Below, one piece after another: positions 23,527 to 30,776 of a DNA stretch of 64,000 nucleotides. Below the pieces are notes generated by a model. That model did not search any database. It was not told where the DNA came from and saw nothing but the letters and a program-made list of their open reading frames with translations. Made by a program: the position numbers and the translations under genes. The stretch is taken from contig NZ_CP036164.1 of assembly GCF_004295485.1 (NCBI RefSeq), positions 1,798,001-1,862,000 of the forward strand. Reading direction: 5' to 3'. This DNA is from Janibacter limosus (GTDB lineage: Bacteria; Actinomycetota; Actinomycetes; Actinomycetales; Dermatophilaceae). Positions within the stretch are counted from its first letter, which is position 1; each line of letters opens with the position of its first letter.

Positions 23527-25674
23527 TCACGGGTTGAGGGTGTCGGCGCCGACCTGCTCGAGCAACCACGCCCACTCCCAGGCCGTCTGCTCCCAGGCGT
23601 CATAGCGGCCCGAGCGGCCACCGTGCCCGGCGCTCATCTCCGTGCGCAGCAGAATCGGACGCTCGGCATCGTGCGCGGTGACCTCGCGCAGCCGGGCCAC
23701 CCACTTGGCCGGCTCGGTGAAGTAGACCCTGGTGTCGTGCAGGGAGGTCGTGGCGAGGATTGTCGGGTACTTCACGGGCGCAATGTTTTCGTAGGGGCTG
23801 TACCCGCGCATGTAGGCATAGACCTCGGGGTCCGACAGCGGGTTGCCCCACTCCTCCCACTCGCCCACCGTCAGTGGCAGGTCGGGGCGCAGGATCGTGG
23901 TCAGCGCATCGACGAAGGGCACTGCCGCGAGCACGGCCACGAAGCGATCGGGTGCGAGGTTGGTCGCTGCACCGACCAGCAGACCGCCGGCGGACCCCCC
24001 TTCGGCAGCGAGGCGTTCACGGGCCACCCAGCCGGTCTCGTGGAGGTGCTCGGCCGCCGCGACGAAGTCGGTGAAGGTGTTGCGCTTGGCCAGCATCTTG
24101 CCGTCGTCGTACCAGTGCCGACCGAGCTCACCGCCACCGCGCACGTGCGCCACGGCGTAGACCAGCCCTCGGTCGAGCAGCGACAGCCGAGCGATCGAGA
24201 AGTACGGGTCGAAGCTCATCTCGTAGCTGCCGTAGCCGTACAGCAGTCCGGGGTTGGTGCCGTCGGCAACGGTGCCGCGGCGCATGACGAGCGACACCGG
24301 GACCTGCGTGCCATCGGGCGCGGTCGCCCAGGTGCGCTGCTGCTCGTAGTCACTCAGCTCGACGCCGCCGAGCACGGGCTGGCGTTTGAGGACGGTGCGC
24401 TCCCCCGTCGCGACGACGACGTCGAGGACGGAGCGCGGCGCCACCCACGACTCGTGGATGACGCGGATGCGGTCGGCGTCAGGATCCGAGACCGGACCGA
24501 GGGCCACGCTGTGCAGCTCGTCGTCGAAGCCCACGATGGTCGGCGAGCCGTAGTCAGACCCGACGAAGGGAGCCGAGCGCGCGACCCGCGGCAGGATCCG
24601 TAGCGCCGGGAGCCCGTCAGCGCGCAGCGACAGGACCGCGAAGTCGTCGAAGGCGTCGATCCCGACGAAGCGTTCGCCCTCCGCGCGCTCGAGCAGGGGC
24701 TGCCACTGCTCGTGGCTGGTGGCGTCGAGCGGTGCCCAGGCGAGGTCGCCCTCGGGCTGGCGCTCGTTGTGCACGATGAGCAGGTGGTCGTCGGCGGGCT
24801 CGATGTCGTAGTCGATGCCATCGCGCCGGGGGGCGACGCAGCGCATGGGACCTGTGGGGTCGTGGGCGTCGATGAGGTGGACCTCGGAGGTGGTCTTGCT
24901 GCCGAGGCCGAGCATGATCCACCGCTCATCGCGGCTGGCGCCCAGACCCATCCAAAAACGCTCGTCGTCCTCGCGGTGCACGAGGGTGTCGGCCTCGCGG
25001 GCGGTGCCGACCTCGTGGCGCCACACCTCGTGCGGGCGCCATGCGTCGTCGACGGTGATGTGGAAGAGGTGGCGGGCGTCGTGGGAGAACGCGAGCCCGT
25101 AGCCGGCCCCGGTCACGGCCTGGTCGAGGACCTCACGCGTGGCGATGTCCATGACGACGACGTCGAAGCGCTCGTCTCCGGTCACGTCGACCGCGTAGGC
25201 CATCCGGGAGTGGTCGGCGCTGATCTCGAAGCCGCCGAGGGAGAAGAACTCGTGCCCCTGCGCGAGCTCGTTGCCGTCGAGGAGCACCTGCTCGCCCGGC
25301 AGCGGCTGCGTGGGGTCCAGCTCGGGGACGGCCGCGCGGTCGGTGAGCGGCGCACGGCACTGGATCGCGTACTGGCTGCCCTCGACGGTGCGGGCGTAGT
25401 ACCACCACTCCCCGGCGGCGACGGGCACGCTCAGGTCGGTCTCGAGGGTGCGCTCCTTGATCTCGTCGAAGAGCCGCTGACGAAGGGGGGCCAGGTGCGC
25501 CGTGGTCGCCTCGGCGTAGACATTTTCGGCCTCGAGGTGCGCGATGACCTCGGGAGCCTCGCCGTCACGCAGCCACTCGTAGGGGTCGGCGACGTCCTCG
25601 CCGTGGTGGGTGCGGGTCCACGGCTGCTGCGCCGCGATGGGAGGTGTGGGGCGCTGCCCCGGTGCTGCACTCAT
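23527..25674 (-). CDS. S9 family oligopeptidase (oligopeptidase B-like)
   Basis: 715 residues, the usual oligopeptidase B size. The N-terminal ~400 residues form the predicted seven-bladed propeller (DPYEWLRDGEAPEVIAHLEAEN at the start). The C-terminal alpha/beta hydrolase domain has GYGSYEMSFDPYFSIARLSL, the nucleophile motif GGSAGG with Ser561, an Asp in TTSLHDTRVYFTEP and His in SAGHGGRSGRYD. It cleaves short peptides, usually after basic residues. No signal peptide is visible, so it is probably cytoplasmic. Its ATG overlaps the dnaE stop (ATGA), coupling its translation to DNA polymerase III alpha, which has no obvious functional logic. Confidence 0.92.
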   Translation of the reverse strand: MSAAPGQRPTPPIAAQQPWTRTHHGEDVADPYEWLRDGEAPEVIAHLEAENVYAEATTAHLAPLRQRLFDEIKERTLETDLSVPVAAGEWWYYARTVEGSQYAIQCRAPLTDRAAVPELDPTQPLPGEQVLLDGNELAQGHEFFSLGGFEISADHSRMAYAVDVTGDERFDVVVMDIATREVLDQAVTGAGYGLAFSHDARHLFHITVDDAWRPHEVWRHEVGTAREADTLVHREDDERFWMGLGASRDERWIMLGLGSKTTSEVHLIDAHDPTGPMRCVAPRRDGIDYDIEPADDHLLIVHNERQPEGDLAWAPLDATSHEQWQPLLERAEGERFVGIDAFDDFAVLSLRADGLPALRILPRVARSAPFVGSDYGSPTIVGFDDELHSVALGPVSDPDADRIRVIHESWVAPRSVLDVVVATGERTVLKRQPVLGGVELSDYEQQRTWATAPDGTQVPVSLVMRRGTVADGTNPGLLYGYGSYEMSFDPYFSIARLSLLDRGLVYAVAHVRGGGELGRHWYDDGKMLAKRNTFTDFVAAAEHLHETGWVARERLAAEGGSAGGLLVGAATNLAPDRFVAVLAAVPFVDALTTILRPDLPLTVGEWEEWGNPLSDPEVYAYMRGYSPYENIAPVKYPTILATTSLHDTRVYFTEPAKWVARLREVTAHDAERPILLRTEMSAGHGGRSGRYDAWEQTAWEWAWLLEQVGADTLNP

Positions 25675-28600
25675 GCTGATACCGCCCGTGCTCCGAGGAT
25701 GACCTTGAGGTCGCCGATCAGCGCCTCGGTGGGTTCGACCCGATAGCTCGCGTCGACGGACATCGTCACCGAGCGGCCGGGTTGGACGAGCTTGATCTGC
25801 ACGTCAGTGCTGCCGGGGTGCTGGGCGAGCACCTGCTTGACCTCTTCGATGCGCCCGGTCGTCGCCCGGGCGTAGTCGAGGGTGAGCACGACGGGCCCGC
25901 GGGGACCGTCGGTGATCTCGGGGATCGTCAGGTCCTCCGCATACAGCGAGACCGTGTCGTCGCGCGCATTGACCCGGCCACGCACGACGGCGACGATGTC
26001 CTGGGTGAGCATCGTCTGCACCGTCAGGTAGGTCTTGGGGAAGAAGAGGCACTCGATCGCGCCCTCGAGGTCCTCGACGGTCGCGATCGCCCAGAGGTCG
26101 CCCTTCTTGGTGCGCTTGACGCTCAGACCCGTGACGAGGCCGGCGACCGTGACGTGGCTGCCCTCCTTGACCCCGGAGTCGGGCTGGGTGAGCGCCGCGA
26201 TCGAGGTGTCGGCGGCGCGCTGCAGCACGTGCTCGACGCCGAAGAGCGGGTGGTCGGAGACGTAGAGGCCGAGCATCTCGCGCTCGTTGGTCAGCTTGGT
26301 CTGCTTGCTCCACTCGACGTCCGGGACCGGCCGCAGCCCCATCCCCTCGATGCCGGCACCGGGCGCCTCGGCCTGGTCGTCGTCGCTGCCGAACATGTCC
26401 CACAGCGAGTCCTGGCCGATGGCCTCCTGGCGCTTGACCCCGACGAAGGCGTCGACGTACTCCTCGTGGACCATGACCAGGCCCTGGCGCGGGTGCCCGA
26501 GGTCGTCGAAGGCTCCGCCCATGATGAGCGACTCGATGGTGCGCTTGTTGCACACGGGTGCCGGGCACTTGGCGAGGAAGTCGTCGAAGGAGGTGAAGGC
26601 TCCCTTCTCCTCGCGCGCGGAGACGATCCCGTCGACGACGTTGCGGCCGACGTTGCGGATCGCGTGCAGGCCGAAGCGGATGTCGCTGCCGACGGCGGCG
26701 AAGGTCCCGACCGACTCGTTGACCGATGGCGGCAGCACCTTGATGCCCATGCGGCGGCACTCGTTGAGGTAGAGCGCCGACTTGTCCTTGTCGTCGCCGA
26801 CCGAGGTCAGCAGCGCCGCCATGTACTCGGCCGGGTAGTTGGCCTTGAGGTAGGCCGTCCAGTACGAGACGAGACCGTAGGCGGCGGTGTGCGCCTTGTT
26901 GAAGGCGTAGTCGGAGAAGGGGACGAGCACGCCCCACAGCGCGGCGATGGAGGCCTCGTTGTAGCCATTGGCCTTCATCCCCTCGGAGAAGGGGACGTAC
27001 TCGGCGTCGAGGACCTCCTTCTTCTTCTTGCCCATGGCACGACGCAGCAGATCAGCATTGCCGAGCGTGTAGCCCGCCAGCTTCTGCGCGATCTCCATGA
27101 CCTGCTCCTGGTAGATGCAGTTGGAGAGCACCATGCCGGTGGACACGAAGTTGTGGACGTCGTCGACGGTGATGTCGTACACCGGCTCGGGCGGACCAGT
27201 CACCACCTGCTCGACGCGCACCCAGTCGAAGGATGCGTCGAAGTGGTCCTCCGCCGTTCCCATGGCCTCGAGGTAGGCCAGCGAGGTCTCGTTGAGCGGG
27301 TAGAGGCCAGAACCGTCGTACACGGGATGGGTCGTCTTGGCGGAGTCGACGTGTCCCTCACGCCAGAGGTGGCGTCGCAGGGCGGGAAGGGTGGCTGCCC
27401 CTGACCGCAGGCTGGCGCGGGCTGCCGGCGCCGTGGCGGCCCGAACGACGTCCCCGGCGTGGACGAGCATGTGCTCCAGCCCGACTCCCCGGCTGCGGGA
27501 CGCCTTCGTCAGCACATCTCGCGGGGAGATCTTGCTCCGGTGGACCATGACGGGCGTGATGATCTGCCAGAAGCGCTCGTCGTAGACGTGCACCGTCCAC
27601 GCGTCCTGGATGCCGTGGCGGGCCGACACATAGCTGTCGGCATGCGCGACACGGGACGGGATGCCGAGGCCGGCGAGCAGCTCCTGGACGTCCGTGGCCA
27701 GCTGGTGGCTGATCGTCTTGTAGTAGGCCAGCTTCTGGCCGACGTGGCCGTCCCCGTCCCAGAGGGCAGCCAGCATCCGGGTGCGCGACAGGACACTCGC
27801 TCGCTTGACGGCCTCAGGGACGAACTTGTGAGCAGCCGTCGTCTTGTCGACGTAACCGAGCTCGCGCAGCCATCGGTTGATCCCGATGGAGGAGAAGCCG
27901 CCGCGTTGCTGGTTGCCGCCGTTGCCCGTGCCCGCAGGTGATGCCGCGAAGCGCACCCGGGGCGCGGAGCGATCGAGGCAGTCGACGACCGGGTGGGTGT
28001 CGTCGAAGAGCCCGCGGGAGAGACGGATGACCTCTGCACGCAGCTGCGGGCTGGAGCTGATGAACGTGTTTTCGTAGAGGGTGATGTACCCGTCGGACAC
28101 GAGATACCCGAGCAGCGCCGCTTCATCCGGCGTCACCGACGACGGATGCGTCCACTCCTGCACGTCTCGCGGCCGGGCGATCCGGTCGACACCCGGCACG
28201 AGCTCGCCCGCCGGGACCCAGCCCCGGGGAGTCAGGACCTTGTGATCACCTGACAGCCGCAGCATCTGTCCTGAGGACGTGTGGACAGCGAGGACGGGCT
28301 TGTCCGGCATCTGCCACCAATGGGTGACGCGACGCCGCACGACCTTGCCGTCGCCGTCCACCCCGAAGGTGAAGAAGCCGTCACGGACACGCTGCTCGAG
28401 CTCGTCCACGCGGACCCGCTCGCCGGTGTCAGCGTCGGTGATCGGCGTCTCGCCCGCGACGCACAACCCGTAGGTGGTGCCCAGGATCGGCCCGAGCGCG
28501 TCCTCCATCTGCGGCTGGAGCTTGCCCTTCAGCTGCGGGTCGAGCGGCACGACCTCCTGGCGGCCGTTCTTGCGCAGGGCGAAGTTGGTGTGCGCGTTGA

Positions 28601-30617
28601 CACCCATCGGGCCGGGTCGGTAGAGCGCGAGGGCGGCGGAGATGTCCTCGAAGTTGTCCGGCTGCATCAGCCGCAGCAGGGTGCGCATGCCGCCACCGTC
28701 GAGCTGGAAGACGCCGAGCGTGTCACCGCGCGAGAGCAGGCGGTAGGTCGCCTTGTCGGTCATGTCCTTGCTCAGGGCGTCGAGGTCGATGTCCTCGCCG
28801 CGGTTGGCCGTGATGTTGATCAGGGCGTCGTCGAGGATCGTGAGGTTGCGCAGACCCAAGAAGTCCATCTTGACCAGGCCGAGCGTCTCGCAGGTCGGGT
28901 AGTCGAACTGCGTGAGGACCTGCCCGTCCTGCAGGCGGCGCATGATCGGGATGACGTCGATCAGCGGCTCGCTGGACATGATGACGCCGGCGGCGTGCAC
29001 GCCCCACTGGCGCTTGAGGCCCTCGAGGCCCTTGGCCAGGTCGACGACCTCACCCAGGTGCTTCTCCGACTCGACGAGCTCGCGGAACTCCTGCCCCTCG
29101 CCGAAGCGGTCGTGGTCCTTGTCCCACATCTTGGCCAGCGGCACACCCTTGCCCATCACGTCGGCGGGCATCGCCTTGGTCAGCTGCTCGCCGACGTTGA
29201 AGGGGTGGCCCATGACGCGGGCGGCGTCCTTGACGGACTGCTTGGCCTTGATCGTGCCGTAGGTGGCGATCATCGCGACCCGGTCGTCGCCGTACTTGTC
29301 GGAGACGTAGCGGATGACCTCGGAGCGTCGGCGCTCGTCGAAGTCGACGTCGAAGTCGGGCATCGACTTGCGCTCGGGGTTGAGGAAGCGCTCGAAGATC
29401 AGGCCGTGCGGCACGGGATCGAGGTCGGTGATGCCCATGGCGTAGGCGCACATCGAGCCGGCACCGGAGCCACGGCCGGGGCCGACCCGGATGCCGTTGT
29501 CCTTGGCCCAGTTGATGAAGTCGGCGACGACGAGGAAGTAGCCGGGGTAGCCCTTGCCGACGATGACGTCGATCTCGTAGTCGGCCTGCTTCTGCGCGTA
29601 CTCGGGGATGCCGTCGGGGAAGCGGCGGCCGAGCCCGGTCTGGATCTCCTTGATGAACCAGGACTGCTCCGACTCCCCCGGAGGGCACTCGAAGCGCGGC
29701 ATGTACCGCCCTTCGCCCTCGACGAAGGAGACCTCGCACATGTCCGCCACGAGGAGCGTGTTGTCGCACGCGTCCGGCAGCTCGCGCCACAGGTGACGCA
29801 TCTCGGCGGGCGACTTGAGGTAGTAGCCCTCACCGTCGAAGGAAAAACGGTCCGGGTCGTGCAGCTTGGACCCGGAGTTGATGCACAGCAGCGCGTCCTG
29901 GGCGATCGCGTCGCCCTGGGCGACGTAGTGCAGGTCGTTGGTCGCCAGCAGCGGCAGCTGCAGATCCTTGGCCAGGCGCATGAGGTCCTCGCGCACCCGG
30001 CGCTCGATCTCGTTGCCGTGGTCCATCAGCTCGAGGAAGTAGTGCTCCTTGCCGAAGATGTCGCGGAACTCCGAGGCCGCCTCGACGGCCTTGTCGTACT
30101 GACCCAGCCGCAGCCGGGTCTGGATCTCGCCCGAGGGGCAGCCCGTGGTGGCGACGAGCCCGTCGCCGTACTGCGACAGCAGCTCGCGGTCCAGGCGCGG
30201 CCACTTGGCGAAGACGGAGTCGAGCGAGGCCCGCGAGCCCATCCGGAAGAGGTTGTGCATGCCGGTGTTGTTGCGCGCCAGCAGGGTCATGTGCGTGTAG
30301 GCGCCACCACCGGAGATGTCGTCACGGGGGTTGGTGCGCTCGTCGCCCCACTTGACGCGGGTCTTGTCGGTGCGGTGCGTGCCGGGCGCGACATAGGCCT
30401 CGAGCCCGATGATCGGCTTGACGTCGTAGGACTGCGCCGTCTTCCAGAACTCGTGCGCCCCGAAGAGGTAGCCGTGGTCGGTCATCGCGATCGCCGGCAT
30501 GCCCATCTCCTGGGCGGTCGAGAACATGTCCTTGATCCGCGCAGCCCCGTCGAGCATCGAGTACTCGGTGTGGTTGTGCAGGTGGACGAAGTTTTCGGAA
30601 CGCGGCAGCTCGGACAT
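25671..30617 (-). CDS. dnaE: DNA polymerase III alpha subunit with an in-frame intein
   Basis: The precursor is 1648 residues; removing the 448-residue intein leaves a 1200-residue replicative polymerase, a normal DnaE size. The PHP domain begins FVHLHNHTEYSMLDG. Catalytic carboxylates are Asp423 and Asp425 in PDFDVDFDE and Asp585 in KMDFLGL, counted on the precursor. The intein starts at Cys719 after GTTYGL and ends before CIYQEQVM. The tail carries the OB-fold region (VTVAGLVTGLSVKRTKKGD). I chose the ATG at 30617 (MSELPRSENF); a longer in-frame reading to 30680 adds non-conserved residues. A -10-like TAGACT ends 7 bases before this ATG, so the message may be leaderless. Confidence 0.95.
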   Translation of the reverse strand: MSELPRSENFVHLHNHTEYSMLDGAARIKDMFSTAQEMGMPAIAMTDHGYLFGAHEFWKTAQSYDVKPIIGLEAYVAPGTHRTDKTRVKWGDERTNPRDDISGGGAYTHMTLLARNNTGMHNLFRMGSRASLDSVFAKWPRLDRELLSQYGDGLVATTGCPSGEIQTRLRLGQYDKAVEAASEFRDIFGKEHYFLELMDHGNEIERRVREDLMRLAKDLQLPLLATNDLHYVAQGDAIAQDALLCINSGSKLHDPDRFSFDGEGYYLKSPAEMRHLWRELPDACDNTLLVADMCEVSFVEGEGRYMPRFECPPGESEQSWFIKEIQTGLGRRFPDGIPEYAQKQADYEIDVIVGKGYPGYFLVVADFINWAKDNGIRVGPGRGSGAGSMCAYAMGITDLDPVPHGLIFERFLNPERKSMPDFDVDFDERRRSEVIRYVSDKYGDDRVAMIATYGTIKAKQSVKDAARVMGHPFNVGEQLTKAMPADVMGKGVPLAKMWDKDHDRFGEGQEFRELVESEKHLGEVVDLAKGLEGLKRQWGVHAAGVIMSSEPLIDVIPIMRRLQDGQVLTQFDYPTCETLGLVKMDFLGLRNLTILDDALINITANRGEDIDLDALSKDMTDKATYRLLSRGDTLGVFQLDGGGMRTLLRLMQPDNFEDISAALALYRPGPMGVNAHTNFALRKNGRQEVVPLDPQLKGKLQPQMEDALGPILGTTYGLCVAGETPITDADTGERVRVDELEQRVRDGFFTFGVDGDGKVVRRRVTHWWQMPDKPVLAVHTSSGQMLRLSGDHKVLTPRGWVPAGELVPGVDRIARPRDVQEWTHPSSVTPDEAALLGYLVSDGYITLYENTFISSSPQLRAEVIRLSRGLFDDTHPVVDCLDRSAPRVRFAASPAGTGNGGNQQRGGFSSIGINRWLRELGYVDKTTAAHKFVPEAVKRASVLSRTRMLAALWDGDGHVGQKLAYYKTISHQLATDVQELLAGLGIPSRVAHADSYVSARHGIQDAWTVHVYDERFWQIITPVMVHRSKISPRDVLTKASRSRGVGLEHMLVHAGDVVRAATAPAARASLRSGAATLPALRRHLWREGHVDSAKTTHPVYDGSGLYPLNETSLAYLEAMGTAEDHFDASFDWVRVEQVVTGPPEPVYDITVDDVHNFVSTGMVLSNCIYQEQVMEIAQKLAGYTLGNADLLRRAMGKKKKEVLDAEYVPFSEGMKANGYNEASIAALWGVLVPFSDYAFNKAHTAAYGLVSYWTAYLKANYPAEYMAALLTSVGDDKDKSALYLNECRRMGIKVLPPSVNESVGTFAAVGSDIRFGLHAIRNVGRNVVDGIVSAREEKGAFTSFDDFLAKCPAPVCNKRTIESLIMGGAFDDLGHPRQGLVMVHEEYVDAFVGVKRQEAIGQDSLWDMFGSDDDQAEAPGAGIEGMGLRPVPDVEWSKQTKLTNEREMLGLYVSDHPLFGVEHVLQRAADTSIAALTQPDSGVKEGSHVTVAGLVTGLSVKRTKKGDLWAIATVEDLEGAIECLFFPKTYLTVQTMLTQDIVAVVRGRVNARDDTVSLYAEDLTIPEITDGPRGPVVLTLDYARATTGRIEEVKQVLAQHPGSTDVQIKLVQPGRSVTMSVDASYRVEPTEALIGDLKVILGARAVSA
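27120..28463 (-). other. LAGLIDADG-type intein inside DnaE
   Basis: The element encodes 448 residues and begins with Cys (block A CVAGETPITDADTGERVRV). It has block B SGDHKVLTPRGW, two dodecapeptide homing-endonuclease motifs (LLGYLVSDGYI and MLAALWDGDGHVG), block F VYDITVDDVHNFVS and a terminal Asn followed by extein Cys. The acidic residues of both endonuclease motifs are present. The residue before the terminal Asn is Ser (MVLSN) instead of the usual His. Both boundaries agree with the uninterrupted consensus TYG-hydrophobic-YQEQVM of DnaE. Predicted outcome: protein splicing restores the polymerase. Endonuclease activity is possible but untested. Confidence 0.95.
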
Positions 30618-30776
30618 CGACCCGAGTCTAGATCGCCCCTGCGACAACCCCGCACGCCGTCGGTCGCTCGCGGCCGACACTCGGCGCGTCGAGATGGAAT
30701 GCCTGCTTCCCGCCGAGGCGGTGGGGGGCTAACGTCAGGAGTGACACCGCTGTCTACACCCACGGAGGGCCCCGGG

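Follow-up and report, generated by a model that had tools for sequence, protein, structure and literature searches.

The dnaE gene of Janibacter limosus, analyzed here in a window of 64,000 nt (the entire stretch from 1,798,001 to 1,862,000 of contig NZ_CP036164.1), is interrupted by a real, well-preserved intein that belongs to a familiar type and whose local history is well resolved. Very probably, this is a mobile bifunctional intein of the class 1 type, equipped with a LAGLIDADG homing endonuclease. The open reading frame (ORF) 25671–30680, on the minus strand like all features described below, is one continuous frame coding for the DNA polymerase III alpha subunit DnaE, and the intein comprises its residues 740–1187 (27120–28463), that is, 448 in-frame, stop-free codons, as delineated by the frame, Pfam and NCBIfam matches, alignment and predicted fold. 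These are exactly the boundaries given by a first-pass annotation of the sequence, which had also rightly placed the insertion in a conserved polymerase block. The splice junctions are TTYGL·CVAGETPITD (N-terminal) and GMVLSN·CIYQEQVM (C-terminal; dots mark splice or insertion points throughout), the insertion point is at the Pfam finger domain of DnaE, and NADLLRRAMGKKK of the polymerase, recognized in the sequence at 27021–27059, starts 20 residues past the C-terminal junction.

Anatomy and class of the intein

The anatomy of the element is directly visible. The Pfam Intein_splicing domain covers intein residues 11–448 (E-value 6e-13), LAGLIDADG_3 scores over its cut-off (E-value 7e-11), and NCBIfam intein_Nterm and intein_Cterm are both above theirs. 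Block A (residues 1–13, 28425–28463, from intein_Nterm) begins with Cys1. Block B, RLSGDHKVLTPRGW, seen in the sequence and the alignment, spans residues 69–82 (28218–28259) and contains His74, with Ser71 at the usual Thr position. Both dodecapeptide endonuclease motifs reported initially are present and intact: LLGYLVSDG (residues 117–125, 28089–28115, with D124; sequence and alignment) and LAALWDGDG (residues 231–239, 27747–27773, with D238; also supported by Pfam). Between the endonuclease and the C-terminal splicing part, the alignment delimits residues 291–410 (27234–27593), conserved in full-size relatives and absent from mini-inteins. Blocks F and G, VYDITVDDVHNFVSTGMVLSN, occupy residues 428–448 (27120–27182; intein_Cterm, alignment) and include Asp430, His437, Ser447 and Asn448. 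Hence the splicing blocks A, B, F and G are all there, as first claimed, but two of them deviate from the usual pattern, block G having Ser447 where a penultimate His is usual, and block B, Ser instead of Thr.

The C-extein (25671–27119; frame, DnaE structure alignment) opens with the +1 Cys of CIYQEQVM. The N-extein is assigned to 28464–30617 by the frame, domain matches and the same structure alignment. The open frame extends to a GTG at 30680; still, the ATG at 30617 (MSELPRS) is probably the start, given the 1648-aa length of P0001, the database entry for this protein. From this ATG, the precursor would probably have 1648 residues, and the predicted mature DnaE, 1200 residues.

Alignment with uninterrupted DnaE proteins, a check proposed in the first-pass annotation, runs straight across the insertion point. 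In chain 7pu7_A (DNA polymerase III alpha, which we take to be DnaE1 of M. tuberculosis), residues 7–710 align with ORF residues 28–739, and residues 711–1180, with ORF residues 1188–1665. As the two halves meet at residues 710/711, the intein is an insertion between adjacent DnaE residues; other solved DnaE chains likewise align up to residue 739. The structure of the intein was predicted from a 23-row alignment with good quality (a poor version from five rows, with the predicted local distance difference test score of 48, was set aside), and the modeled fold matches known intein-endonucleases, the endonuclease part being I-DmoI-like.

The assignment to class 1 agrees with the presence of both nucleophiles, Cys1 and the +1 Cys, of blocks A, B, F and G of the Hint fold (domain matches, alignment, predicted fold) and of the C-terminal Asn448. 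The penultimate His typical of this class is replaced by Ser447, but functional inteins without it are known from published examples (PMC5874633, PMC5050341), and hence Ser447 is no bar to class 1 membership. Class 3 inteins are described as having no nucleophile at position 1 (PMC5050341), and here Cys1 is present; nor is the gene divided in two, as in the split DnaE inteins of cyanobacteria, since the frame 25671–30680 is single. The endonuclease has two LAGLIDADG motifs with the catalytic acids D124 and D238, invariant in 7/7 aligned full-length inteins.

We infer that this copy splices and that its endonuclease cuts; the order of chemical steps given here is that of the established class 1 mechanism. 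The precursor would be translated as a single 1648-residue chain, Cys1 would attack the Leu-Cys junction, the N-extein would be transferred to the +1 Cys of CIYQEQVM, and Asn448 would cyclize, releasing the intein and leaving an ordinary DnaE of 1200 residues. The predicted target of the endonuclease is this same point in empty dnaE alleles, where repair of the cut would copy in the intein together with some flanking dnaE sequence, and the intein would persist as a selfish element where imprecise deletion is lethal.

Distribution and mobility

A protein search yielded 33 proteins at E-value 1e-3 or better. Twenty of them (P0001, encoded in the window itself, to P0020) are DnaE with a closely related intein at the same site, 16 full-size and four mini-inteins of 171–174 residues, while the search with the intein alone returned one fragment. 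Four more DnaE proteins, P0021–P0024, have an intein at exactly the same point with 30–31% identity; therefore, judging by sequence, two or more divergent lineages of inteins have used this site.

At the family level, 14 of 186 genomes match at E-value 1e-18 or better, and 13 remain after setting aside G160, whose sole match is to a gene that has junctions of the DnaB type. The insertion site was read in the two genera holding these 13 genomes; the other 139 family genomes were searched for intein matches only. The 47 genomes of the two genera include 13 occupied, 32 empty and two undetermined sites: in Janibacter (16 genomes), three are occupied, twelve empty and one cut by a contig end, and in the second genus (31 genomes), ten are occupied, twenty empty and one is without a match. 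Eight of the occupied genomes have full inteins and five have mini-inteins, all five in the second genus. (By their coordinates, G012 is Janibacter anophelis NBRC 107843, G156 is Serinicoccus chungangensis, G166 is Ornithinimicrobium sp. CNJ-824, G169 is O. murale, G181 is an uncultured Serinicoccus, and G183 is Ornithinimicrobium tianjinense.) Across the phylum, 396 sampled genomes gave ten matches at E-value 1e-20 or better, including this genome; of the other nine, one is at the same DnaE site (G331), one at another DnaE site, five have DnaB-type junctions, and two are unassigned.

The occupied state is scattered over the polymerase tree with no significant clustering: on the tree of 45 exteins it requires 10 changes, compared to the mean of 11.6 for shuffled states, with 83 of 500 shuffles as low. 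This tree has some long branches (G166, flagged, as well as G165, G169, G004 and G012), as some rows are cut or contain a second intein. The patchiness is evident at short distances: the occupied G013 and the empty G007 are 97.5% identical in dnaE DNA, and the sisters of this genome, G010 and G011, are empty at approximately 95% dnaE identity. On the tree of the splicing domain, mini-inteins, which retain the splicing blocks, need three changes, or two at the minimum when counted by strongly supported branches.

The +1 Cys is found in 13/13 occupied and 21/32 empty alleles (Fisher p 0.019), and together with Tyr at –3, in 12/13 and 16/32, respectively (p 0.015), while Tyr at –3 alone yields p 0.13; these values are uncorrected for shared ancestry. 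A strict rule with Tyr at –3 as a requirement for occupancy fails, as G013, P0005 and P0006 have THGL. The empty dnaE genes of G010 and G011 (L044, L045) read THGL·VIYQEQ, without the +1 Cys, and the 50 bases leading up to the site are unusual; these alleles may resist the intein. Co-conversion into this genome was considered, given only 68% identity to the sisters over the 50 bases adjoining the intein on its upstream side, compared to approximately 95% overall, but this is not clear evidence and the reading was dropped, because the unusual sequence (THGL·V) sits in the sisters.

Among the pairs compared, clear evidence of transfer is seen only in G156. At the DNA level, its intein shares 99.6% identity with the one in G168, and the informative dnaE sites of G156 are G168-like in 98 of 102 cases and then, past a switch at +83 to +128 bases beyond the intein, in 16 of 94, being mostly G181-like (0 of 2000 permutations as extreme). 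We read this as a horizontal transfer in which the intein was accompanied by at least 1.4 kb of upstream and approximately 0.1 kb of downstream sequence. The ratio of nonsynonymous to synonymous substitution rates (dN/dS) of the endonuclease is 0.14–0.18 when the Janibacter copies are compared (three pairs) and 0.31 for this genome against G181; the endonuclease has thus been under purifying constraint. The transfer footprint in a relative and this constraint fit homing into empty alleles by an endonuclease with predicted activity. In the Janibacter pairs, the synonymous divergence (dS) is 0.88–0.94 in the intein and 0.24–0.27 in the exteins.

Several observations weigh against the explanation as a mobile class 1-type intein. 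The GC content at third codon positions is 0.84–0.88 in the intein vs. 0.94–0.97 in the exteins, and this weaker bias may explain a part of the higher intein dS. Janibacter inteins group together on the intein tree, which thus shows no sign that this copy recently moved from one genus to another. The transfer footprint comes from Serinicoccus chungangensis, whose intein is 65% identical, and not from this genome. Finally, as described above, the penultimate His and the block B Thr are replaced by Ser447 and Ser71.

Splicing, replication and rival explanations

The host genome is a single contig of 3.55 Mb with two genes for C-family polymerases. The product of the second, of which 1137 residues were read, has its best score with the model of error-prone polymerases, 587.6 bits, only slightly above the 582.1 bits for a DnaE model and below the cut-off of the former. 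Because the other C-family polymerase scores best as the error-prone type, and no second replicative DnaE was found in the genome as a substitute, splicing is presumably needed for replication, and the first-pass annotation soundly concluded that production of the replicative polymerase requires it. Such a location fits the known pattern, as published work places inteins in those regions of replication proteins that are conserved and functional (PMC2814812, PMC7765530). In one survey of the alpha subunits of polymerase III, inteins were excised ahead of the analysis (PMC3919608).

The further suggestion, that the intein could make replication conditional, finds no support, as the intein is absent from 12 of 16 members of the genus and scattered like a mobile element. 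It would have this effect if stress, via oxidation of Cys1 or the +1 Cys, or via metal binding, slowed splicing and paused replication, so that the host retained the intein. The DnaE intein does have two junction cysteines, endonuclease-free mini-inteins persist in five of 31 genomes of the second genus, and the DnaB intein of M. smegmatis has been proposed as an oxidative stress sensor (PMC6195587). However, the site is empty in most of Janibacter, including G007, whose dnaE is 97.5% identical to that of the occupied G013, the occupied state is not significantly clustered, endonuclease loss is to be expected in the course of homing cycles as well, and Cys1 is the sole Cys of the splicing part (Cys162 being in the endonuclease part), leaving no internal disulfide partner there. 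We consider a regulatory role improbable; according to a 2014 review, no evidence was known that conditional splicing plays a physiological role (PMC4031507). A broader scenario, with this lineage splicing by a His-independent, junction-tuned route, Cys-dependent splicing braking the replicase under oxidative stress, and mini-inteins of the sister genus kept for host benefit, is speculative and hardly to be expected.

Even more doubtful is the possibility that Ser447 makes the intein splicing-defective or slow, with little active DnaE left. The penultimate His is described as normally assisting Asn cyclization (PMC4031507, PMC7765530), and it is present in the four distant same-site inteins P0021–P0024. 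Yet Ser is found in all 33 close rows, i.e., in 26/26 distinct close relatives, mini-inteins included; cyanobacterial DnaE inteins are reported to have Ser or Ala at this position (PMC5874633), with the splicing half-life of Npu DnaE given as a minute or less (PMC4031507); and no second replicative DnaE was found as a replacement. As close relatives share Ser and cyanobacterial DnaE inteins splice with Ser or Ala, we expect good splicing and regard Ser447 as a likely shared trait of the lineage rather than decay. With this common Ser, the lineage departs from what has been stated in print on actinobacterial inteins (PMC5050341), and it may offer a case of a contiguous intein that splices efficiently without the penultimate His.

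That the segment is an assembly error or an ordinary DnaE domain is practically out of the question: there are same-site inteins in independent genomes and contigs and empty alleles in close relatives, and solved DnaE chains are continuous across the point.

With a mobile class 1-type intein as the preferred explanation, its patchy spread among close relatives is a useful rather than surprising example. One site in an essential polymerase provides a natural series of full inteins, mini-inteins and empty alleles in closely related species, to which one interspecies transfer with a mapped breakpoint is added; this series is suitable for tests of homing, endonuclease loss, and any benefit of a replicase intein.

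Other inteins and comparison with known systems

A scan of the J. limosus genome with Intein_splicing found no other intein, though it scored even the DnaE intein below the cut-off, and others could be missed. A literature search found no paper on inteins in Janibacter, and none on this DnaE site among the titles and abstract openings listed; InBase was outside its scope, and we do not claim the site as unreported.

A second DnaE intein of 373 residues, at GKGY·C...HN·CGYFLVV, is seen in P0003 (Janibacter anophelis, residues 358–730) and P0020 (Ornithinimicrobium murale, residues 354–726); P0002, also labeled J. anophelis, lacks it. The +1 Cys of this second intein seems to arrive with the intein, because DnaE proteins without it (P0001, P0002, P0014) have Pro at this position. 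An extra splicing-domain match in G012 dnaE is also a second intein. P0026 and L099 (genome G304) have DnaE inteins at FNK·...HN·SHS(A/T)AYA, close to the YAFNKAH motif (residue 1258 of the ORF described here), and the DnaE intein of P0025 ends HN·CYQEQIM, one residue off the Janibacter site. Outside dnaE, other Janibacter genomes have Intein_splicing matches in G006 (C8, with DnaB-type junctions), G009 (C1) and G012 (C54).

Among inteins with solved structures, TliVMA (7qss/7qsu), PhoVMA (7qst), PI-PfuI (1dq3) and PI-SceI are bifunctional LAGLIDADG inteins, similar to the fold predicted here; they reside in other host proteins, have 16–22% identity, and differ from the Janibacter intein, which has Ser instead of the penultimate His. 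Divergent counterparts by location are P0021–P0024 and G331 from another part of the phylum, with TYG(L/T)·C...HN·C(I/V)YQE at the same point and the penultimate His; identity to the Janibacter intein is 31% for P0021–P0023 and G331, and 30% over 73% for P0024. Actinobacterial DnaB inteins and the Mtu RecA intein are in other host genes, with approximately 30% identity, and those read end HN·S. The Npu and Ssp DnaE inteins of cyanobacteria are split, whereas the Janibacter intein is contiguous and has an endonuclease; their insertion point is presumably further downstream, beside the motif that reads YAFNKAH here.
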